Below, in pieces: positions 511 to 9,657 of a stretch of 64,000 bases of DNA. Each line of letters opens with the position of its first letter. The stretch's first letter is position 1. The notes beneath the pieces were generated by a model, which worked only from the letters and a program-made list of their open reading frames with translations, was not told the origin of the DNA and did no database searches. Both the position numbers and the translations under genes were made by a program. The stretch is from Candidatus Aminicenantota bacterium (GTDB taxonomy: Bacteria > Acidobacteriota > Aminicenantia > Aminicenantales > JAFGAV01), in NCBI GenBank assembly GCA_016933515.1, contig JAFGAV010000025.1:1-64000 (forward strand), in the 5' to 3' direction.

Positions 511-637
511 CAGGCTTTCGGCCGCAAGATCATTATTACTTGATTTGAATCATGTCCCTGATAGAGAATTTTTCAAAGAGGGATAGGGCGAGTTGATTTT
601 CAGAGGACTTGAGATTTCATTACAGAGGAGGACGAAC

Positions 638-988
638 ATGGAAGAAGGGAAGGCGATGAATGTGGGAGACGGTGATTTTGAACAGGAAGTATTGAAATCA
701 AACGTTCCCGTGATTGTGGATTTCTGGGCTCCTTGGTGCGGACCTTGCCGGATGGCCGGTCCGGTGCTTGAGAAAATCGCTCAAGAATACCAGGGAAGAT
801 TGAAAGTGTGCAAGTTGAATGTTGATGAAGGACGCCAAACAGCCTCCCAATTTGGGATCATGAGCATACCCACATTGAATCTTTATAAAGATGGCGAGGT
901 TGTGGACCAAATGATCGGAGTCACGCCAAGCTACGAATCGGATCTTAAGAAAATGATAGAACCGAAATTGGAAAAAAACGAAGAGTGA
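638..988 (+). CDS. trxA: Thioredoxin
   Basis: This 116-residue protein has the canonical WCGPC active site (residues 33-37), the central [11 protein letters not shown] strand with its cis-proline, and normal thioredoxin length. It reduces disulfides of client proteins in the cytoplasm. I chose ATG 638 because AGAGGAGG lies about 8 bases upstream; the frame opens earlier (593) without a ribosome site, and a second ATG lies at 656. It sits 7 bases before a thioredoxin reductase-like gene, so the two are an operon. Codons are AT-richer than in most of the window, as in the next three genes. Confidence 0.95.
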
Positions 989-995
989 TTTCCTA

Positions 996-1943
996 ATGAA
1001 TGACATCGCGGCCGATGTGATCATTGTGGGAGGCGGCCCGGGGGGCTTAACGGCCGCCATTTATACCTCCAGAAATCGACTGAACACTCTTCTCTTAGAG
1101 AAAGGCGTATGCGGAGGATTGCCCGCAACGACCGATGCGGTGGAAAATTATCCTGGTTTTCCGGACGGCATCAACGGGATGGAGTTGATCAATAAGTTTA
1201 AGAAACAGGCCGCAAGATTCGGCACGAACATTATTGAATTCAAGGAAGTAAAAAGAATCGAACCAGTCGGGGAGAGGATCGGCGTACAGACTGATGAAGA
1301 ACGGTACAATGCCGATGCGGTGATCGTGGCTTCGGGCAGCATCCCGAAAAAATTGAATATTCCCGGCGAAGAAAAGTACAGCGGCAGGGGTGTTTCTTAC
1401 TGTGCCACATGTGACGGGCCGCTCTATAGAGACAAGCACGTCGCTGTTATCGGCTGCGGGAATTCCGGGCTGCAAGAAGGCGAATCCCTTCTCAAGCATG
1501 TAAAGAGTATCGTTTTTATAGAGTTTTTGCCTTACATGACGGCTGAAAAAATCTTGCAAGAAAGATTGCAAAAAAACGAAAACACGCAGTTTTTATTGAA
1601 CCATGAACTCACTTCGATACAGGGCGACGCAGGAGTCCGGTCTGTTGCGGTCAGGAACCGTCAGACGGGCGAGGAAAAACAGATTGAGGTTTCGGGCGTC
1701 TTCATCTACGCGGGATTTTTGCCGAATTCAAAATTTTTGGAAGGCATTGTCGAATTGGATCGTTGGGGATACATCGCGACGAACGAAAAAATGGAAACGA
1801 CCGTGCCCGGCATCTATGCCGTAGGAGATGTGCGCTCAAAGAAGGTGCGTCAGATCAATGTCGCTTGTGGCGAAGGAACAATCGCGGCCATAGCGGCCGC
1901 TGAGTATATAAACGAACTGAGGTTTAAAGTAGGGAAGACGTAA
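996..1943 (+). CDS. trxB: Thioredoxin reductase-like flavoprotein
   Basis: This 315-residue two-dinucleotide-domain flavoprotein has the FAD motif GGGPGG (12-17), the redox pair CATC (136-139), and the C-terminal TTVPGIYAVGDV FAD segment. These define the low-molecular-weight thioredoxin reductase family, which passes electrons to thioredoxin. The second nucleotide motif is GCGNSG, and the HRRxxxR motif that binds the NADPH 2'-phosphate is absent; the region reads FIEFLPYMTAEKIL, similar to the AhpF type. NADH or another donor is therefore more likely than NADPH; this is inference. It is translated 7 bases after trxA with only a weak ribosome site, which suggests coupling. Confidence 0.88.
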   Translation: MNDIAADVIIVGGGPGGLTAAIYTSRNRLNTLLLEKGVCGGLPATTDAVENYPGFPDGINGMELINKFKKQAARFGTNIIEFKEVKRIEPVGERIGVQTDEERYNADAVIVASGSIPKKLNIPGEEKYSGRGVSYCATCDGPLYRDKHVAVIGCGNSGLQEGESLLKHVKSIVFIEFLPYMTAEKILQERLQKNENTQFLLNHELTSIQGDAGVRSVAVRNRQTGEEKQIEVSGVFIYAGFLPNSKFLEGIVELDRWGYIATNEKMETTVPGIYAVGDVRSKKVRQINVACGEGTIAAIAAAEYINELRFKVGKT

Positions 1944-2096
1944 TCTTTAGAGCTTTTCTCCAGGCACCGGACGGATTCAGGTTTTGTCCTGCGGGAAAAG
2001 GCCCGAATGTCCCCCCTCCCAACCACCCTTGGCGCCGACGGGAGCCCCAACTGCACCATAACGGCTATCTGGAGAAAATCTGACCCTTGAGAAAAG

Positions 2097-2138
2097 CGGA
2101 AGCATTCACGTTGGTGGAAACCGGAAGCATTCACGTTG
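2097..2138. repeat. Two 17-base direct repeats upstream of the frdBA-like promoter
   Basis: CGGAAGCATTCACGTTG occurs exactly at 2097-2113 and again at 2122-2138, a 25-base period. The second copy ends 24 bases before the candidate -35 box at 2162. Two identical half-sites just upstream of a promoter are the usual arrangement for an activator. No regulator gene is adjacent. Confidence 0.5.
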
Positions 2139-2161
2139 CCTTGACAGAGGGAAAAAACCGT

Positions 2162-2190
2162 TTGAAAAATTACCGTTCCCATGGTATATA
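2162..2190 (+). promoter_or_regulatory. Sigma70-like promoter for the fumarate reductase-like pair
   Basis: TTGAAA (2162-2167), a 17-base spacer, then TATATA (2185-2190); an overlapping TATAAG lies at 2187-2192. It precedes an approximately 100-base leader before the ATG at 2297. The 353-base gap between trxB and this gene contains no other gene that I can support. Confidence 0.6.
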
Positions 2191-2201
2191 AGACACTTTG
2201 T

Positions 2202-2230
2202 TTCCCGTCTTCGTTGCTTGAGGACGGGAA
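2202..2230 (+). other. Leader hairpin before frdB-like gene
   Basis: TTCCCGTC (2202-2209) pairs with GACGGGAA (2223-2230) around a 13-base loop, just after the predicted transcription start. It has no U-tract, so it is more likely an mRNA-stabilising or regulatory hairpin than a terminator. Confidence 0.35.
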
Positions 2231-2296
2231 GAAAAGCGAGGTTGTCTTTTTCATCGAGGAAATTATTATTAATCCAAACTGGAATCTGGAGGAAGC

Positions 2297-3052
2297 ATGA
2301 AAGAAAAAAAGAGCATCATGGATAGAATCGCGGAATCCAACAAGGCCGTCACCACGGGAGTTGATGAAAAAGACATCAAAAGCTGGGTGACCATTTATGT
2401 GATGGGCAAAGCTTATAAGGTTCCAGCAGGATTAACCATTATGCAGGCCATGGAGTTTGCCGGCTATCGATTTATCCGCTCTTGTGGGTGCCGGGCCGGG
2501 TTTTGCGGCGCCTGCGGCACCATATACCGAAAGATAGGAGATTATAAGCTTCATGCGGTGATGGCTTGTCAGACCAGAGTGGAAGACGGCATGTATCTGG
2601 TCCAAATTCCTTTCGCCCCTGCTTATAAGGCGACATATGACATTCAAAAAGAAAAGTATGAAGTCGGCACTCTTTTCAAATACTATCCGGAACTCGCTCG
2701 TTGTGTTTCCTGCAACACATGCACGAAATCATGCCCGCAGGGTCTTGAGGTGATGGATTATATCCAGGATGCGATCAAAGGCGATTTTGAAAAGGTGGCC
2801 CATGAGTCTTTTGACTGCATCCAGTGCGGCCTCTGTGCCGTGAGGTGCCCCGCGGAATTGGTGCATTATAATATCGCCCAGCTCGCCCGAAGGATGTTCG
2901 GATATCATGGAAATAAAGAACCGGAACTTCTAACAGCCAGACTGGAAGAAATAGAAAAAGGAAAATATAAAAAGGACTGGGAAAAGCTCCTCAAAGCATC
3001 CATAGAGGAGCTCAAAAAATTGTATGCGGAACGAGTCAGGGAAGCCGACTAG
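2297..3052 (+). CDS. Fumarate reductase/succinate dehydrogenase-type iron-sulfur protein
   Basis: This 251-residue protein has an N-terminal 2Fe-2S ferredoxin domain (C65-x4-C70-x2-C73 and C91) and two complete CxxCxxCxxxCP motifs (C136-146 and C174-184). Standard SdhB/FrdB carries one [4Fe-4S] and one [3Fe-4S] site; the second motif here looks like a full [4Fe-4S] site, as in TfrB or HdrC-like proteins. It should pass electrons between an unknown partner and the flavoprotein encoded 15 bases downstream. No cytochrome b or membrane anchor gene follows, and there is no HdrB-like CCG domain. A good ribosome site (GGAGG) precedes ATG 2297. The C-terminal 50 residues are charged and helical. Confidence 0.85.
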   Translation: MKEKKSIMDRIAESNKAVTTGVDEKDIKSWVTIYVMGKAYKVPAGLTIMQAMEFAGYRFIRSCGCRAGFCGACGTIYRKIGDYKLHAVMACQTRVEDGMYLVQIPFAPAYKATYDIQKEKYEVGTLFKYYPELARCVSCNTCTKSCPQGLEVMDYIQDAIKGDFEKVAHESFDCIQCGLCAVRCPAELVHYNIAQLARRMFGYHGNKEPELLTARLEEIEKGKYKKDWEKLLKASIEELKKLYAERVREAD

Positions 3053-3067
3053 CTGAGGAGGAGAATC

Positions 3068-4726
3068 ATGTCCGAAATGAAATATATCAAAGGTTATCCG
3101 GAATACATGCGCGATCTCATCGATGTCGTAAACAAAACCCGAATCAAAAGAAAAGATTATTCTCCTCCGGCGATGAGCGCGAAAGAACGGGAAGAGGTTC
3201 TTCAAGTCCATCCGGATTTTGCCCCCGGCGGAAAAAGGAAAATATCCATAGGCTTGAATAAGGGCGATCTGGCCGCCAATGAGGTGGTGGATCTTCTGGA
3301 AGCTTACCCGGTTATTGAAAAAGAAGAAATCGATCTTTCCAAAGTCCATTACAATCCTGATGTTCTGATTATCGGCGGCGGCCTGGCGGGAACTTCGGCG
3401 GCCATTTGGTGCAACAATCAGGGAATCCCCGCGGAAAAAATACTTCTTGTCAACAAATTGAGACACGGCGACGCCAATTCGATCATGGCCGAGGGCGGAA
3501 CTCAGGCCGCGGATCGCCCGAACGATTCCCCCCTCATCCATTATCTGGATGCCATGGGGGGCGGACATTTTTCGAACAAACCGGACGTCCTCAAAGCGCT
3601 GGTGGAGGATGCCCCTTATATCATGCACTGGCTGGTGGAGCTGGGAGCCATGATCGATAGAGAAGAAAACGGGGAGTTTGCCTCCAAGTGGGGAGGAGGG
3701 ACTTCAAGAAGAAGAATGCATGCCTGCCGGGACTATACCGGCCTCGAGGAATTCAGGGTCATTCGGGACGAATTCCGAAACAGAAAGATTCCCGCCTTGG
3801 AATTTTATCCTGCAGTCGAACTGCTGACCGATGCCGCCGGGAGAGTCGCGGGGGCGGTTCTCTGCAATCTTGAAACCAGCGAATATGAAATCGTGAAAGC
3901 GAAAACAACGGTTCTGGCCACGGGCGGATTCGGCCGGCTTCATATCAGAGGTTTCCCCACCACGAATCACTATGGGGCGACGGCCGACGGAATCGTGTTG
4001 GCCTACAGGGCCGGAGCCAAATTGAGAGACACGGATACCGTTCAATATCATCCCACGGGAGCCGCTTTCCCTCCCCAGATCATCGGCCTGCTTCTCACCG
4101 AAAAGCTCAGAAGCATGGGAGCGCAACCCGTGAATGTCGACGGTGAAGCCTTTGTCTTCCCGCTCGAGCCGAGGGATGTTGAGGCCGCCTCGTTTATTCG
4201 AGAGTGCTATGTCAGGGATAAAGGGATTCTCACCCCTACCGGCATGAGAGGGATCTGGCTGGACACTCCTTTGATCGAAGTCAAAAATGGAAAGGGAACC
4301 ATCGAGAGCGCTTTTCCCGGCATGAAAAGGATGTTCGAAAGATTCGATATCGATATGGCGACGGATCCGGTTCTGGTCTTTCCGACGCTTCATTATCAGA
4401 ACGGAGGAGTGGAAACAGACCCGGAAGGAAAGACCAATGTCGCCGGGCTTTTTGTCGCCGGTGAGATATCGGGCGGCGTCCATGGGAAAAACAGGCTCAT
4501 GGGGAATTCAACCCTGGATTGCATGGTTTTCGGACGGAGAGCCGGAATCTATGCCGCCGAAGATGCGAAAAAGGCCAAAACCCCGAAGAATTTGAGTTTG
4601 AAGCATATGGCAAAATATATAGACATGCTGAAAGCGGCTCGGATAAAGTCTGAAAGAAAAGCTCCAATGCTGCTTCCGGATTACCGAGGAAAAGCCGTTC
4701 TCGCAAGAATGATCGACGTTTTTTAA
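3068..4726 (+). CDS. Fumarate reductase/succinate dehydrogenase-type flavoprotein
   Basis: This 552-residue FAD protein is of the SdhA/FrdA family. It has an unusual N-terminal extension of about 95 residues, then GGGLAG (103-108), and keeps the substrate and catalytic landmarks QYHPTG, HYQNGG and KNRLMGNSTLD. In covalently flavinylated members a histidine precedes the AEGG segment; here the aligned residue is Asn137 (ANSIMAEGG), so FAD should be bound non-covalently. It probably interconverts fumarate and succinate (or a similar enoate) together with the upstream iron-sulfur protein. No membrane subunit is encoded nearby, so the complex may be soluble. AGGAGGAG lies 6 bases before ATG 3068. 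It is AT-richer than genes after 5 kb. Confidence 0.88.
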   Translation: MSEMKYIKGYPEYMRDLIDVVNKTRIKRKDYSPPAMSAKEREEVLQVHPDFAPGGKRKISIGLNKGDLAANEVVDLLEAYPVIEKEEIDLSKVHYNPDVLIIGGGLAGTSAAIWCNNQGIPAEKILLVNKLRHGDANSIMAEGGTQAADRPNDSPLIHYLDAMGGGHFSNKPDVLKALVEDAPYIMHWLVELGAMIDREENGEFASKWGGGTSRRRMHACRDYTGLEEFRVIRDEFRNRKIPALEFYPAVELLTDAAGRVAGAVLCNLETSEYEIVKAKTTVLATGGFGRLHIRGFPTTNHYGATADGIVLAYRAGAKLRDTDTVQYHPTGAAFPPQIIGLLLTEKLRSMGAQPVNVDGEAFVFPLEPRDVEAASFIRECYVRDKGILTPTGMRGIWLDTPLIEVKNGKGTIESAFPGMKRMFERFDIDMATDPVLVFPTLHYQNGGVETDPEGKTNVAGLFVAGEISGGVHGKNRLMGNSTLDCMVFGRRAGIYAAEDAKKAKTPKNLSLKHMAKYIDMLKAARIKSERKAPMLLPDYRGKAVLARMIDVF

Positions 4727-4733
4727 CCGGATC

Positions 4734-4958
4734 ATGGCCGAGGCGGAATCGCTGATGTCGGGCGGCGGATATGCCGTGGTTTCGGCGGAAGGGCTGGAGA
4801 TCGCAACGGCCTCTGACTGTTCGGCTTATGACGCCGAGTTCGTCGCCTTAGCCTGCGACCTGAGGGCGCCCCTCGGGACGCTCGACAAGGCCGGTCTTGA
4901 AGCCTTTCCGGAGACTGCCGTCACCCCGCCCCGCTTCCTGGCCGATCCGGCGCCCTGA
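4734..4958 (+). pseudogene. Remnant of a VapC-type PIN-domain toxin (C-terminal half)
   Basis: This 74-residue frame carries SAYDAEFVALA and then LGTLDK, which match the C-terminal half of PIN-domain ribonucleases, including the conserved Asp residues of the active site. Full VapC proteins are about 130 residues, so the N-terminal half with the first catalytic Asp is missing. No VapB antitoxin lies upstream; instead the frame begins 8 bases after the flavoprotein stop. It is GC-rich, unlike the preceding genes, and marks the point where composition changes back. I read it as a native toxin gene cut by the event that brought in the AT-rich segment. Confidence 0.55.
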
Positions 4959-5090
4959 CCTCTTCTTCAAGCCGGAAACGAGCTGAGCCGCCCGCGCTGC
5001 CCCTCGCCGCAGCGGGAGCGGCGTGTGTCGTCGCCTTCCTCTCGGAGTGGTTTTTGGCAAGTCTTTGTGGCGCTTTAGCGGTGGTTTTCA

Positions 5091-5096
5091 TATAAT
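5091..5096 (+). promoter_or_regulatory. -10 box for dgt
   Basis: A perfect TATAAT with no clear -35. The predicted transcription start (about 5103) coincides with an in-frame TTG and lies 15 bases before the ATG at 5118. Confidence 0.45.
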
Positions 5097-5117
5097 ACGC
5101 TGTTGGAAAAAGCGGCG

Positions 5118-6146
5118 ATGAACATCAGGGAGAAGATAGAGGAACAGGAGAGGACCATCCTCTCGCCCAGGGCCTGCCTGAGCCTGGCCTCGAAGGGAAG
5201 GGTGCGGCCGGAGAAACCTCACGACTTGCGCACGGCCTTCCAGCGCGACCGGGACCGCATCCTGCACTCGAAGTCCTTCCGCAGGCTGAAGCACAAAACC
5301 CAGGTCTTCCTGGCGCCCTTCGGAGACCACTTCCGGACGCGTCTGACGCACACGCTCGAAGTGTCCCAGATCGCCCGGACGCTGGCGCGGGCGCTGGCGC
5401 TCAACGAGGACCTGACCGAGGCCGCCGCCCTGGGGCACGACCTGGGCCACACGCCCTTCGGCCACGCGGGCGAGGAAACGCTCCGCAAACTCCTGCCCGG
5501 AGGATTCTATCATGCCGACCAGAGCCTGCGGGTCGTGGACAGGCTCGAATACGAAGGCAAGGGCCTGAACCTGACCCATGAGGTTCGGGACGGCATCTTC
5601 AAGCATTCCAAGGGCCGGGGCGAAATCCTCAGCTCCCGCAAGGCGGACATGCCCGAGACGCTCGAGGGGCAGCTGGTCCGCATCTCGGACGTCATCGCCT
5701 ACGTCAACCACGACATCGACGACGCTCTCCGGGCGGGCATCATCAAGGAGAGCGACATCCCTCCGCGCCTCATCAAGATGCTGGGTCGCTATCACGCCCA
5801 CAGGATCGACACGATGGTCGGGGACGTCGTGCAGACGAGCCTCAAGGTGGGGCTGGAGAAAATCGCGATGAGCCCGTCCGTCATGGACTCCACGGTCGCG
5901 CTGAGGGATTTCCTCTACGACAAAGTCTACAACAGCGAGTTCGCCCAAAGAGAGCACGCCAAGGCCAAAAAAATCCTCACCGACCTCTACCGCTTCGTCT
6001 TGGAGAGCCCTGCGGGCTATGTCAAGGACTACCCGGCCGGCGATTCCCTGGAAAAGAGAGCCGGGGATTTCATCGCCGGCATGACCGACCTGTATGCCTT
6101 GGCCCTTTATGAAAAGCTGTTCCTGATCAGACCGGGGACCCTGTAG
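5118..6146 (+). CDS. dgt: Deoxyguanosinetriphosphate triphosphohydrolase-like protein
   Basis: This 342-residue HD-superfamily protein has the dGTPase signature [13 protein letters not shown]78 in RLTHTLEV, the HD pair at 107-108 followed by [12 protein letters not shown], and a later Asp in [15 protein letters not shown]. The family hydrolyses dNTPs to the nucleoside and triphosphate, controlling nucleotide pools. ATG 5118 gives the usual family N-terminus (IREKIEEQE then LSP); an in-frame TTG at 5103 sits exactly at the predicted transcription start and is an alternative. The length is typical of the shorter class (deoxyguanosinetriphosphate triphosphohydrolase-like, not the 500-residue E. 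coli form). Substrate preference cannot be told from sequence. Confidence 0.9.
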
Positions 6147-6181
6147 CAAGGACGGAAAGGCGCTCAGCCGGCGAACAAGAG

Positions 6182-6952
6182 ATGAGAGAGGGAAGAGGCG
6201 CGCCGGTCGTCGATGTCGCGGACCTTGTCAAGGACTTTAAAAAGCTCCGGGCCGTGGACGGGGTGTCCTTCACCGTTTCGGAGGGCGAGATCGTCGGACT
6301 CCTCGGGCCGAACGGCGCGGGAAAGACGACGATCATCCACATGCTCCTCGGACTGACGACCCCGACTTCGGGCCGGGTTCGCGTCTTCGGCCTGGACTTC
6401 GGTCGACACCGGTCGCGCATCCTCCAGGAGGTCAATTTCTCCTCGACCTACACGGACATGCCCTATTCGCTCACCGTGCAGGAGAGCCTGCGTGTCTTCG
6501 CCCGGCTTTACGGCGTCCGCCGCCGCGAGGAAAAGATACGCGGCCTTCTCGAAACCTTCGGCTTGACCGACATCCGCCGCAAGCAGGTCCGCCACCTGTC
6601 CACGGGGCAGCGCACGCGGCTCAATTTGTCCAAAGCGCTGGTCAACGACCCGCGCGTCCTCTTCCTCGACGAGCCCACGGCTTCGCTCGATCCGGACATC
6701 GCCGACAAAACGCGCAAGCTCCTCAAGCGGGTCAAGGAGGAGCGGGGCATCTCCATCCTCTACACTTCGCACAACATGATAGAGATGGAGGAAGTCTCGG
6801 ACCGAGTCCTTTTTCTTCACCGGGGCCGGCTCCTGGCCGAGGGGACGCCCGCGGAGGTCGTGCGCTCGTTCCGGGCGGCGAGCCTGGAAGACGCCTTCCT
6901 CAAGGTGGCCCGCGGGAAGGACGCGGGCGGAAAAGGGACGGCGCTTCCATGA
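6182..6952 (+). CDS. ABC transporter ATP-binding protein
   Basis: This 256-residue ATPase carries Walker A GPNGAGKTT (42-50), signature LSTGQ (139-143) and Walker B VLFLDEP (159-165). It is the cytoplasmic motor of an ABC-2 type exporter whose permease gene overlaps its last 4 bases (ATGA). The resemblance is to the drug, lipid or polysaccharide export subfamily with a short C-terminus; the substrate is not apparent. The start at ATG 6182 leaves 35 bases after dgt, so the three genes may be co-transcribed. Confidence 0.92.
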   Translation: MREGRGAPVVDVADLVKDFKKLRAVDGVSFTVSEGEIVGLLGPNGAGKTTIIHMLLGLTTPTSGRVRVFGLDFGRHRSRILQEVNFSSTYTDMPYSLTVQESLRVFARLYGVRRREEKIRGLLETFGLTDIRRKQVRHLSTGQRTRLNLSKALVNDPRVLFLDEPTASLDPDIADKTRKLLKRVKEERGISILYTSHNMIEMEEVSDRVLFLHRGRLLAEGTPAEVVRSFRAASLEDAFLKVARGKDAGGKGTALP

Positions 6953-7740
6953 AATTCCACCGGATCTTCGCCGTGTTTCTCCGGTATTTCTACATCTACC
7001 GCCGAAGCGGCACGCGGATTTTGGAGACCGTCTACTGGCCGCTCCTCGACCTGGTCCTCTGGGGATTCGTGACGCTCTACCTTTCCCGCAGCGCGAAGGG
7101 GCTGCCCCAGTTCGTCGCCTTCCTTCTCGGCGCCCTTATCCTCTGGGACATCCTTTTCCGCTCCCAGCAGGGCATATCGGTCTCGTTCCTGGAAGACGTC
7201 TGGGCCCGGAATTTTCTCAACATTTTCGTCAGCCCCCTGACGACCTGGGAATACCTCCTGGCCCTCATGCTCTCGAGCCTGCTCAAAATTCTGATCGCCG
7301 GCGTGGTGCTGACGCTCATGGCCTGGCTTTTGTTTTCGTTCAACATCTTCCTCATCGGCATCTCGCTCCTGCCGTTCCTCATCCTCCTTGTCTTCCTGGG
7401 GTGGGCGATCGGCCTCATCACCACGGCCATCATCCTCCGCTTCGGCCAGCAGGCCGAGGTCCTGGCCTGGGGGATCGCCCTGCTCTTTCAGCCCGTATCA
7501 GCGGTGTTCTATCCCGTCTCCGTTCTGCCGCCCATTCTCCAGGCCGTGGCGCGCTTCATGCCCGCGGCCCACGTCTTCGAGGGAATGCGGTCCGTCATCT
7601 CCACGGGCGCGTTTCCGAAGCGCGAGCTCCTGGTCGCCCTCGCCCTCGACGTTGTTTACCTGGCCGCAGCCCTGGCGTTCTTCTTTTGGATGTTCCGCGT
7701 CGCGCGCAAAAAGGGACTCCTGGCGCGGGTCGGCGAGTGA
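6949..7740 (+). CDS. ABC-2 type transporter permease
   Basis: This 263-residue integral membrane protein has about six hydrophobic segments and the ABC-2 family layout: a basic amphipathic N-terminus, a first helix with WPLLDLVLWG, and a last loop with a FPKREL segment before the C-terminal helix. It overlaps the ATPase gene by 4 bases, so the two are translationally coupled and form one exporter. The segment PVSAVFYPVSVLP is typical of the family's conserved core. The exported substrate is unknown. Confidence 0.88.
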   Translation: MKFHRIFAVFLRYFYIYRRSGTRILETVYWPLLDLVLWGFVTLYLSRSAKGLPQFVAFLLGALILWDILFRSQQGISVSFLEDVWARNFLNIFVSPLTTWEYLLALMLSSLLKILIAGVVLTLMAWLLFSFNIFLIGISLLPFLILLVFLGWAIGLITTAIILRFGQQAEVLAWGIALLFQPVSAVFYPVSVLPPILQAVARFMPAAHVFEGMRSVISTGAFPKRELLVALALDVVYLAAALAFFFWMFRVARKKGLLARVGE

Positions 7741-7748
7741 GAGTCGGG

Positions 7749-7777
7749 TTGTGATAATCCGCCGCAGCGATTATAAT
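7749..7777 (+). promoter_or_regulatory. Sigma70-like promoter for tkt
   Basis: TTGTGA (7749-7754), 17-base spacer, perfect TATAAT (7772-7777). The predicted start near 7784 gives a leader of about 50 bases before ATG 7834. Confidence 0.65.
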
Positions 7778-7833
7778 GAGCCCTCTTTCATCTCCATGAT
7801 TATGCCGTCATCGCTCCGGGGAGGGAAACCGAC

Positions 7834-9657
7834 ATGAGCAAGGTCGAGACGCTCCAAAAAATCGCGACGAAGCTGAGAATCCACTCGCTGGCCATGACGA
7901 CGCGCGCCGGGTCCGGGCATCCGACGACCTGCCTGTCCATGGCCGAGATCGCCGCCTGCCTCTTTTTCAGTGAGATGAAATACAACGTCCGCGACCCGCA
8001 TGATCCTCTCAACGACGAGATCGTGCTGTCCAAGGGGCACGCGGCGCCCATCCTCTGGGCGGCCTACGCCGAGGCGGGCATAATCACGAAAAAGTCCCTT
8101 CTCGACCTGCGAAAATTCACGAGCGACCTCGAGGGCCATCCCACGCCCCGCTTCCCTTGGATTAAAGCGGCCACGGGATCGCTCGGCCAGGGGCTGGCCG
8201 TCGGCGCGGGCGTCGCGCTCGGACAGAGGCTGCGCAAAACGTCCGCCCGGACCTACGTCGTCATGGGCGACGGCGAGTGCGCCGAGGGCGCGGTCTGGGA
8301 AGCGGCCAACATTGCCTCCCTTCTCGGCCTCTCGAACCTCTGCGCCGTCGTCGATGTCAACCGGCTGGGCCAGTCCGACTTCACCATGCATCGCCACGAC
8401 CTGGCCGCCTACGGCCGCAAATTCAAGGCCTTCGGCTGGGAGGTCTTCACGGTCGACGGCCACGACATTCCCGCCCTGCTCGGCGCCCTCGACAAGGCGC
8501 GCAAGGCGTCCCGCCCCGCGGTCATTCTCGCCAAGACGATCAAAGGCAAGGACGTGTCTTTCGTCGAGGACCGGAACGGTTGGCACGGAAAACCCCTCAA
8601 GGAAGACGAACTCCGGGAGGCCCTGGCCGAGCTGGGCAAGATGCCGGCTGTGGACGCAAGGAAGCTTGTCAAAGCCCGAAAAGGAAAACGGCCGGCCGAA
8701 CCGAGTCGGATTTATGAGTTCGACAGAACGGACTACAAAGAGAAAACAGCCACCCGGCTGGCCTACGGAAAAGCCCTGGCCGGACTGGGCCGCGCCAATC
8801 CCGACGTCGTTGTCATCGACGGCGACGTCAAGAACTCGACGTATGCCGACAAGTTTTTCGAGGCGTTTCCGGAACGCTCGTTCCAGGCCTTTATCGCCGA
8901 GCAGTCCATGGCCGGAATGGCCATGGGCCTGGCGGCTAAAGGATTCATTCCTTTCACGGCCACATTCGCCGCTTTTTTGACCCGGGCCCACGACCAGGTT
9001 CGCATGGCCGCCTACTCCTTCGCCAATGTCAAGTTCTGCGGCTCTCACGTCGGCGTGAGCATCGGTGAGGACGGCCCGTCCCAGATGGGGCTTGAGGACC
9101 TGGCCATGTTCCGGCCCATCCCCGGCTGCGTCGTCCTCTATCCCAGCGACGCTTTTTCCGCCGAAGCCTGCGTCGAGGCGGCGGCCTGGCACCGGGGGAT
9201 GGTCTATATCCGCACCACGCGGCCGGCGACGCCGCTGCTCTACGAAAAGGGAGAGGCGTTTCCCGTCGGCGGGTCCAAGGTCCTGCGCTCGAGCGCCGGC
9301 GACAAGGCGGTCGTCGTGGCGGCCGGCATCACCGTTCACGAGGCCCTCAAGGCGGCCGACGAACTTAAGGAGGGCGGGATTTCCGTCAGGATCGTGGACG
9401 CCTACTCGGTCCAGCCCATCGACGCCCCGGGTCTGAAGCGGCACGCCGCCGAGTGCGGCGGGAATGTGATTGTGGTCGAAGACCACTTCCCGGCGGGCGG
9501 TCTGGGGGAGGCGGTCGCCGCCGCCCTGGCCGGCTGCGCCAAAATCGCTCATCTTTGCGTCCGCGAGCTTCCGCGCTCGGGAAAGCCCGCCGAACTTCTC
9601 GACGCCTGCGGAATCAGCGCCCGTCACATCCGCAAGGCCGTGGAGGATATGTCCTGA
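7834..9657 (+). CDS. tkt: Transketolase, short metazoan-type
   Basis: This 607-residue single-chain transketolase moves two-carbon units between sugar phosphates in the non-oxidative pentose phosphate pathway. Visible motifs are GSGHPTT (26-32), LSKGHAAP (65-72), the thiamine diphosphate motif GDGECAEG (145-152) and the pyrimidine-domain catalytic Glu356 in IAEQSMAG. Length and motifs (PTTC, DINRLGQSD-like DVNRLGQSD) resemble animal transketolases of about 620 residues more than the 660-residue E. coli form. GGGGAGGG lies about 10 bases before ATG 7834. It has its own promoter. The N- and C-terminal halves are not split into two genes as in many archaea and anaerobes. Confidence 0.93.
   Translation: MSKVETLQKIATKLRIHSLAMTTRAGSGHPTTCLSMAEIAACLFFSEMKYNVRDPHDPLNDEIVLSKGHAAPILWAAYAEAGIITKKSLLDLRKFTSDLEGHPTPRFPWIKAATGSLGQGLAVGAGVALGQRLRKTSARTYVVMGDGECAEGAVWEAANIASLLGLSNLCAVVDVNRLGQSDFTMHRHDLAAYGRKFKAFGWEVFTVDGHDIPALLGALDKARKASRPAVILAKTIKGKDVSFVEDRNGWHGKPLKEDELREALAELGKMPAVDARKLVKARKGKRPAEPSRIYEFDRTDYKEKTATRLAYGKALAGLGRANPDVVVIDGDVKNSTYADKFFEAFPERSFQAFIAEQSMAGMAMGLAAKGFIPFTATFAAFLTRAHDQVRMAAYSFANVKFCGSHVGVSIGEDGPSQMGLEDLAMFRPIPGCVVLYPSDAFSAEACVEAAAWHRGMVYIRTTRPATPLLYEKGEAFPVGGSKVLRSSAGDKAVVVAAGITVHEALKAADELKEGGISVRIVDAYSVQPIDAPGLKRHAAECGGNVIVVEDHFPAGGLGEAVAAALAGCAKIAHLCVRELPRSGKPAELLDACGISARHIRKAVEDMS

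Follow-up and report, generated by a model that had tools for sequence, protein, structure and literature searches.

The 64-kb window analysed here (positions 1-64,000, forward strand, of contig JAFGAV010000025.1) belongs to a metagenome-assembled genome (MAG) of a Candidatus Aminicenantota bacterium (GCA_016933515.1; 89.8% complete) and carries an adjacent pair of genes, one encoding an FrdB-like iron-sulfur (Fe-S) subunit and the other an FrdA/TfrA-like flavoprotein with a flavin adenine dinucleotide (FAD)-binding domain. From the sequence comparisons described below, we consider it probable that this FeS-FAD pair is the catalytic part, active on dicarboxylates, of a fumarate reductase that is soluble, cytoplasmic and linked to Hdr or NAD(P)H, and that an Hdr set on another contig of the same genome, C122, is its likely partner. 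Fumarate would be reduced at the non-covalent FAD of the flavoprotein, to which electrons would pass via the [2Fe-2S] and two [4Fe-4S] clusters of the Fe-S subunit, and the donor would be a separately encoded soluble redox module, not quinol or thioredoxin. In most relatives this module would be HdrABC-MvhD, to which a HydBG/AsrAB-type NAD(P)H arm may be added. The likely donor in the source organism is HdrCB-Kor-HdrA-MvhD on C122 (Kor, 2-oxoglutarate:ferredoxin oxidoreductase), a set that has lost its own flavoprotein gene. An initial annotation of this DNA had described the pair as anchorless, with non-covalent FAD and probably a soluble donor, and had suggested thioredoxin in that role; the former parts agree with the present results and the last does not.

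Identity and predicted cofactors of the gene pair

Both open reading frames (ORFs) were confirmed (Table 1), with 15 nt between them and a purine-rich ribosome-binding site before each. Residues were assigned from a family alignment of 58 homologues, compared with E. coli FrdA, SdhA and NadB for the flavoprotein and with FrdB and SdhB for the Fe-S subunit. The latter matched the profiles of Fer2_4 and Fer4 dicluster domains. Eleven of its 12 cluster cysteines occurred in 58/58 homologues and the twelfth, C177, in 57/58, in keeping with the two full CxxCxxCxxxCP motifs reported initially. The C177 position is Val in E. coli FrdB and Ile in SdhB, where the site is [3Fe-4S]; because C177 supplies the fourth cysteine, the third cluster site here has a [4Fe-4S] motif and not a [3Fe-4S] one.

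The histidine that binds FAD covalently in classical complex II (succinate:quinone and quinol:fumarate oxidoreductases, SQR/QFR) was absent from the flavoprotein, and Asn137, already noticed in the initial annotation, stands in its place, with Asn in 58/58 homologues. The catalytic residues H328, T330, E345, R348, R369, H442 and R476 were likewise invariant (58/58) and match H232, T234, E245, R248, R287, H355 and R390 of FrdA, which is the active-site set of the superfamily; these residues and Asn137 are also kept in the distant homologues of Ilyobacter, Cupriavidus and Pseudoroseomonas. We infer the cluster and cofactor content of the pair from these motifs, and the FAD is probably bound non-covalently.

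No curated NCBIfam cut-off was reached by the flavoprotein, its best match being TfrA (284.5 bits, cut-off 718). Its AlphaFold2 model had a mean pLDDT (predicted local distance difference test) of 72 and a pTM (predicted template modelling score) of 0.76, and the best fold match in the PDB was E. coli FrdA (1kf6_A). The Rossmann fold starts at residue ~98, so the N-terminal extension, estimated initially at about 95 residues, measures ~97; no separate fold match to it was obtained in the structure search, and it may serve for docking of a partner. The alignment further showed that the C-terminal helical domain of FrdA/SdhA is absent from the family, a point that the initial annotation had not made. 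For the Fe-S subunit, the AlphaFold2 model (pTM 0.46) was too poor for use. A domain search found no CCG domain in its 251 residues. The possibility that the Fe-S subunit is fused to MvhD or CCG in some relatives was considered and rejected, since the long Fe-S ORFs in loci L061 and L063 have non-homologous N-terminal parts; by eye, the one in L063 starts with a hydrogenase maturation protease-like region.

Table 1. Features of the FeS-FAD pair and its surroundings (window coordinates)
Feature	Position	Strand	Evidence
Fe-S subunit (FrdB-like), [2Fe-2S] + 2x[4Fe-4S] motifs	2297..3052	+	251 aa; domains, family alignment
[2Fe-2S] motif C65, C70, C73, C91	2489..2569	+	invariant in 58 homologues
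First [4Fe-4S] motif C136-x2-C139-x2-C142-x3-C146-P	2702..2734	+	invariant in 58 homologues
Second [4Fe-4S] motif C174-x2-C177-x2-C180-x3-C184-P	2816..2848	+	C177 57/58, other three 58/58
Flavoprotein subunit (FrdA/TfrA-like), FAD_binding_2	3068..4726	+	552 aa; PF00890 E=1.6e-60
N-terminal extension of flavoprotein, residues 1-97, conserved in family	3068..3358	+	family alignment
Asn137 codon, at covalent-FAD His44 position of E. coli FrdA	3476..3478	+	alignment, Asn in 58/58 homologues
Low-GC island (approximate limits): trxA, trxB, FeS-FAD pair	560..4750	.	GC 44-56% vs 60-67% in flanks
Thioredoxin TrxA (CGPC)	638..988	+	TIGR01068 above cut-off
Thioredoxin-reductase-like TrxB (CATC)	996..1943	+	TIGR01292 350.5 bits vs cut-off 343

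Membrane anchor

An anchorless, soluble state of the pair is supported by the distribution of anchor genes. As stated initially, no cytochrome b gene was present in the neighbourhood of the pair. The source genome holds one SdhC (PF01127), on contig C26, beside a canonical SdhB and a canonical SdhA that has the covalent-FAD histidine and is 33% identical to the window flavoprotein; judged by this context, the anchor is that of a separate, canonical SdhCAB. In addition, no Sdh_cyt gene was detected in at least five genomes of the same order that are 91-94% complete (G006, G016, G025, G031 and G034), nor in G037, all of which carry the pair. A hidden anchor for the pair was rejected on these grounds. 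The initial annotation had held that an anchor gene always co-occurring elsewhere in the genome would speak against an anchorless pair, and no such gene was found. Directly 3' of SdhCAB (locus L109, 5775-7064, on C26 of the source genome, G000) lies a gene for a cytochrome b6/bc1-type protein, identified by eye, which suggests a respiratory chain in the source organism.

Gene neighbourhoods of the relatives

Close homologues (66-83% identity) occurred in WOR-3/Stahlbacteria, Aminicenantes, Aerophobetes, Spirochaetes, Cloacimonadota, Fermentibacteria, TA06 and others. The Fe-S subunit was matched in 38 of 40 related genomes, most of the weak matches being unrelated ferredoxin-type proteins, and a family member at an identity of at least about 50% was present in 19 of the 40, source genome included. 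Synteny was surveyed at 46 other loci whose sequence extends 3 kb or more 5' of the flavoprotein gene; these were collected by similarity searches and are not independent samples. HdrABC/MvhD and/or a HydBG-type NAD(P)H module lay beside the pair in 33 of them; the window itself has no Hdr or NAD(P)H module at this place. The recurrent neighbours were HdrA, MvhD/FlpD, HdrC, HdrB (CCG), HydB/AsrA-like and HydG/AsrB-like NAD(P)H-binding proteins, together with an FrhB/FdhB-like protein, the NiFe hydrogenase MvhA, 2-oxoacid:ferredoxin oxidoreductase, succinyl-CoA synthetase and malic enzyme. Kor genes often accompanied the Hdr/Hyd-linked loci, and fumarase adjoined the pair in L049 and L052. The gene order in Aminicenantes relatives was hdrC-hdrB-korA-korB-korC-hdrA-mvhD-(frhB-hydB-hydG)-FeS-FAD, and HydB-HydG stood immediately 5' of the pair in the nearest relatives (locus L024 of genome G037 and L074 of G031).

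More distant relatives include cultured strains. Ilyobacter polytropus DSM 2926 (54% identity) has the order aspartase-hdrB-hdrC-hdrA-mvhD-frhB-hydB-hydG-FeS-FAD, followed by aspartate aminotransferase and a TRAP transporter; Cupriavidus metallidurans CH34 (42%) has FeS-FAD-NuoF and then a sodium:dicarboxylate symporter, and Pseudoroseomonas also has an FeS-FAD-NuoF cassette. These contexts point to fumarate as substrate and to soluble, exchangeable electron partners, and the former is supported by the neighbours as a whole (Kor, malic enzyme, succinyl-CoA synthetase, fumarase, aspartase in Ilyobacter, the symporter in Cupriavidus). Across many bacterial phyla, the catalytic pair seems to act as a portable unit whose partner may be HdrABC, a HydBG/AsrAB-type module, NuoF or MvhA. 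In a subgroup of WOR-3/Stahlbacteria (L029, L031, L050, L068 and L070), the pair stands without such a module and is followed on the opposite strand by genes for a conserved glutamate-synthase-domain protein, a small ferredoxin-like protein and a NuoF-GltD-like fusion of ~1026 aa, a candidate alternative electron partner.

A native Hdr-Kor module and apparent replacement of its catalytic pair

The family flavoprotein was found once in the source genome, in the window, and the two other superfamily matches were 33% and 32% identical. Contig C122 carries hdrC-hdrB-korA-korB-korC-hdrA-mvhD and a second Fe-S gene without a flavoprotein gene; its HdrA is 76% identical to that of L024, and its HdrB 53%. 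In the second Fe-S gene C180 is replaced by Arg, the normal end is lost and everything 3' is gone. The counterpart in G001, a genome of the same genus, is intact and followed by a flavoprotein gene, and the DNA homology between C122 and G001 (89-90%) ends inside the Fe-S gene, marking a deletion breakpoint. At clade-invariant positions the C122 Fe-S protein showed 14 deviations, some of them in a non-homologous tail, versus 2 in G001. We judged the gene to be decaying from the lost Cys, the lost C-terminus, the deleted FAD gene and these deviations, not from the ratio of nonsynonymous to synonymous substitution rates (dN/dS); relaxed selection by that measure was rejected, since the value of 0.148 was not above that of HdrA (0.21) or MvhD (0.18). 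At the breakpoint, the opposite strand carries a gene that by eye is M28-peptidase-like (locus L105 on C122; decaying gene at about 1800-3040).

In the tree, the window copy grouped in a cross-phylum clade and the G001 copy in another, the split being supported at 100/100 on both sides. The window pair therefore looks like a horizontally acquired one and the case like a xenologous replacement of a decayed native copy. On the simplest account, a foreign FeS-FAD pair would have arrived on an island together with trxAB, the native flavoprotein gene would then have been lost, and the native Hdr-Kor core on C122 would now be served in trans by the window pair; both this order of events and the interaction of the pair with Hdr are our reconstruction.

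Direction, coupling and alternative explanations

The reductive direction is favoured because the FAD is predicted to be non-covalent; 8-methylmenaquinol:fumarate reductase (MFR), which lacks covalent FAD, reduces fumarate but shows no succinate oxidation (PMC2680327). Flavin-based bifurcation at HdrA might plausibly couple the reaction to ferredoxin or 2-oxoglutarate synthase. A more specific arrangement, in which HdrA in one cytoplasmic complex would bifurcate electrons to fumarate via the pair and to ferredoxin bound to Kor, with the foreign pair docked on the native Hdr-Kor core, is tentative and in our estimate rather doubtful; if true, two nearby steps of the reductive tricarboxylic acid (rTCA) cycle would be energetically coupled.

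Several points weigh against the Hdr-linked assignment. The pair and the Hdr module are not on the same contig, their interaction is deduced from relatives, and trees and synteny do not prove it. Thirteen of the 46 other loci are orphan pairs like that of the window, lacking a nearby Hdr/Hyd module, which means that the donor may be a different one, and the relatives in aerobic proteobacteria are tied to NuoF, not Hdr. Since the MAG is incomplete, a direct partner may be missing from it. The Cys loss on C122 is possibly an assembly error; the FAD deletion, however, lies inside the contig. Biochemical data on the FeS-FAD family were not found in the literature searched.

Another possible donor is a simple NAD(P)H diaphorase of the HydBG or NuoF kind with its genes elsewhere, in which case the pair would be a plain NADH:fumarate reductase without Hdr, as the NuoF cassettes of Cupriavidus and Pseudoroseomonas and the HydB-HydG genes of the nearest relatives would suggest. 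We regard this as unlikely for the source organism, whose only HydG-like matches are 39% and 32% identical, the better of them adjoining HydB- and MvhA-like genes and looking like part of a hydrogenase, and whose intact native Hdr operon has a broken copy of this Fe-S subunit at its end. The presence of Kor, malic enzyme, succinyl-CoA synthetase and MvhA hydrogenase genes beside the pair in relatives, and the fact that the organisms bearing it are mostly uncultured anaerobes, would also fit oxidative running in a syntrophic lifestyle, with electrons from succinate and from 2-oxoglutarate-derived ferredoxin confurcated to NAD+ or H2. This is improbable, because Asn invariably replaces the FAD-linking His, enzymes without covalent FAD have lost or lack succinate oxidation (PMC2680327), and the source genome also has the canonical SdhCAB suited to that reaction.

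As to the substrate, the scores of the flavoprotein fall between TfrA, NadB and SdhA and below every curated cut-off, so that L-aspartate or another unsaturated acid might be used. The NadB Glu121 position is nevertheless Gly in the flavoprotein and mostly Gly in the family, and the nadB model (TIGR00551) gave 245 bits against a cut-off of 453; on these two counts an aspartate oxidase identity was rejected. Moreover, a second homologue, on C71 of the source genome, aligns over the NadB/SdhA range, and the neighbours are aspartase, fumarase, malic enzyme, Kor, SucCD and a dicarboxylate symporter, which makes action on another superfamily substrate very improbable. Least credible of all is the donation of electrons by the adjacent TrxAB, that is, thiol-driven fumarate reduction, for which the adjacency on one low-GC island in the window speaks. 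Conserved synteny with trxAB, proposed initially as a check on this idea, was seen in 0/46 other loci, the adjacency being confined to the window; the gap between trxB and the Fe-S gene is 353 bp with promoter-like hits inside; and neither subunit has a cysteine-rich thiol-oxidising domain. Use of thiol/disulfide donors near -270 mV would call for an Fe-S disulfide site, for example CCG. Thioredoxin coupling was rejected on this synteny and on the composition of the island.

Comparison with known systems

Clusters that join Hdr, Kor and a fumarate reductase are already known as a proposal. korABCD-tfrAB-flxABCD-hdrABC rTCA clusters with a putative thiol:fumarate reductase (TFR) occur in tubeworm symbionts and Thioflavicoccus, and TFR-OGOR-Mvh-Hdr clusters in Cloacimonadota; a link to Hdr, with electrons coming from an Hdr complex, was proposed for both (PMC6315080; PMC8542988). 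As in the tubeworm-symbiont and Cloacimonadota clusters, a soluble FrdA/FrdB-like pair is encoded with Kor and HdrABC, here in the relatives. In contrast to those clusters, the relatives are spread over many phyla and make use of HydBG/AsrAB-type, NuoF or MvhA modules as well, and the window pair is detached, horizontally acquired and apparently a replacement for a decayed copy; TfrAB was compared by description only. The 'succinate operon' of Pseudoclostridium thermosuccinogenes, as far as it is outlined in PMC7282089 (citing Koendjbiharie and van Kranenburg, preprint 2019), comprises fumarase, an HdrABC-type complex and a soluble fumarate reductase for which bifurcation was proposed. By that description, its NADH module is FlxABCD, whereas relatives of the window pair have HydBG/AsrAB-type or NuoF modules.

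Methanothermobacter TfrAB resembles the pair in being soluble, in TfrA being its best NCBIfam match and in that the genetic unit of the relatives includes an HdrB-type CCG protein. It differs in that CCG is part of the TfrB chain there and a separate HdrB gene here, and the TfrA cut-off was missed; no TfrB scored above its cut-off in the 40 related genomes or the source genome. The analogy to TfrAB drawn initially thus holds for the HdrB-like CCG gene, which lies beside the pair in many loci and on C122, and fails for fusion of CCG to the Fe-S subunit. MFR and E-type SdhABE share with the pair the non-covalent FAD, the cysteine pattern of the second [4Fe-4S] site and an HdrB-like partner (PMC2680327); unlike them, the pair has an N-terminal extension without a twin-arginine (Tat) motif and scored 180 bits, far below the cut-off of 1100. 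An SdhE/CCG gene was found neither next to the pair nor in the window. Hydrogenobacter/Aquifex FrdABCDE is reportedly a soluble, multi-subunit, NADH-dependent fumarate reductase with scattered genes (Miura 2008). Its subunits, listed in PMC10052474, form a set different from HdrABC-MvhD when compared by description only.

What appears new here is the modular partner range, the occurrence in cultured model organisms and an apparent xenologous replacement in trans. The ferredoxin source for 2-oxoglutarate synthase in rTCA bacteria has been described as unresolved (PMC10052474), and a soluble fumarate reductase encoded together with HdrA and Kor suggests a direct answer, in which fumarate is the high-potential sink paying for ferredoxin. 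Because relatives exist in Ilyobacter polytropus and Cupriavidus metallidurans, the idea can be tested in cultured strains.

The low-GC island and the thioredoxin genes

The pair and the two thioredoxin genes lie on the only low-GC stretch within the window, and the GC content at third codon positions (GC3) of trxA, trxB and the FeS and FAD genes is 0.50-0.58 versus 0.83-0.87 in neighbouring genes. The contig as a whole is not foreign, because the flanking genes are 87% identical to those of a same-genus genome. G001 is syntenic with window positions 5067-7909 and not 5' of 5067, where its contig ends and only ~360 bp of comparison sequence were available. Most simply, trxAB merely travelled on the same island as the pair. 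The best match of TrxB among 39 related genomes was 48% identical. By eye, the TrxB-like protein has CATC and GCGNSG, but where classical TrxB has the HRRxxxR NADPH motif it has VFIEFLPYM; its donor may be a different one, such as NADH or ferredoxin. About 160 bp 5' of the Fe-S gene, at 2093-2138, are two tandem 21-nt direct repeats (AAAGCGGAAGCATTCACGTTG, 95% identical), a possible regulatory site or recombination scar. At 4713-4958, following the flavoprotein gene, lies a frame of ~80 aa that by eye resembles the C-terminal part of a PIN-domain (VapC) toxin and is possibly a remnant at the island edge.

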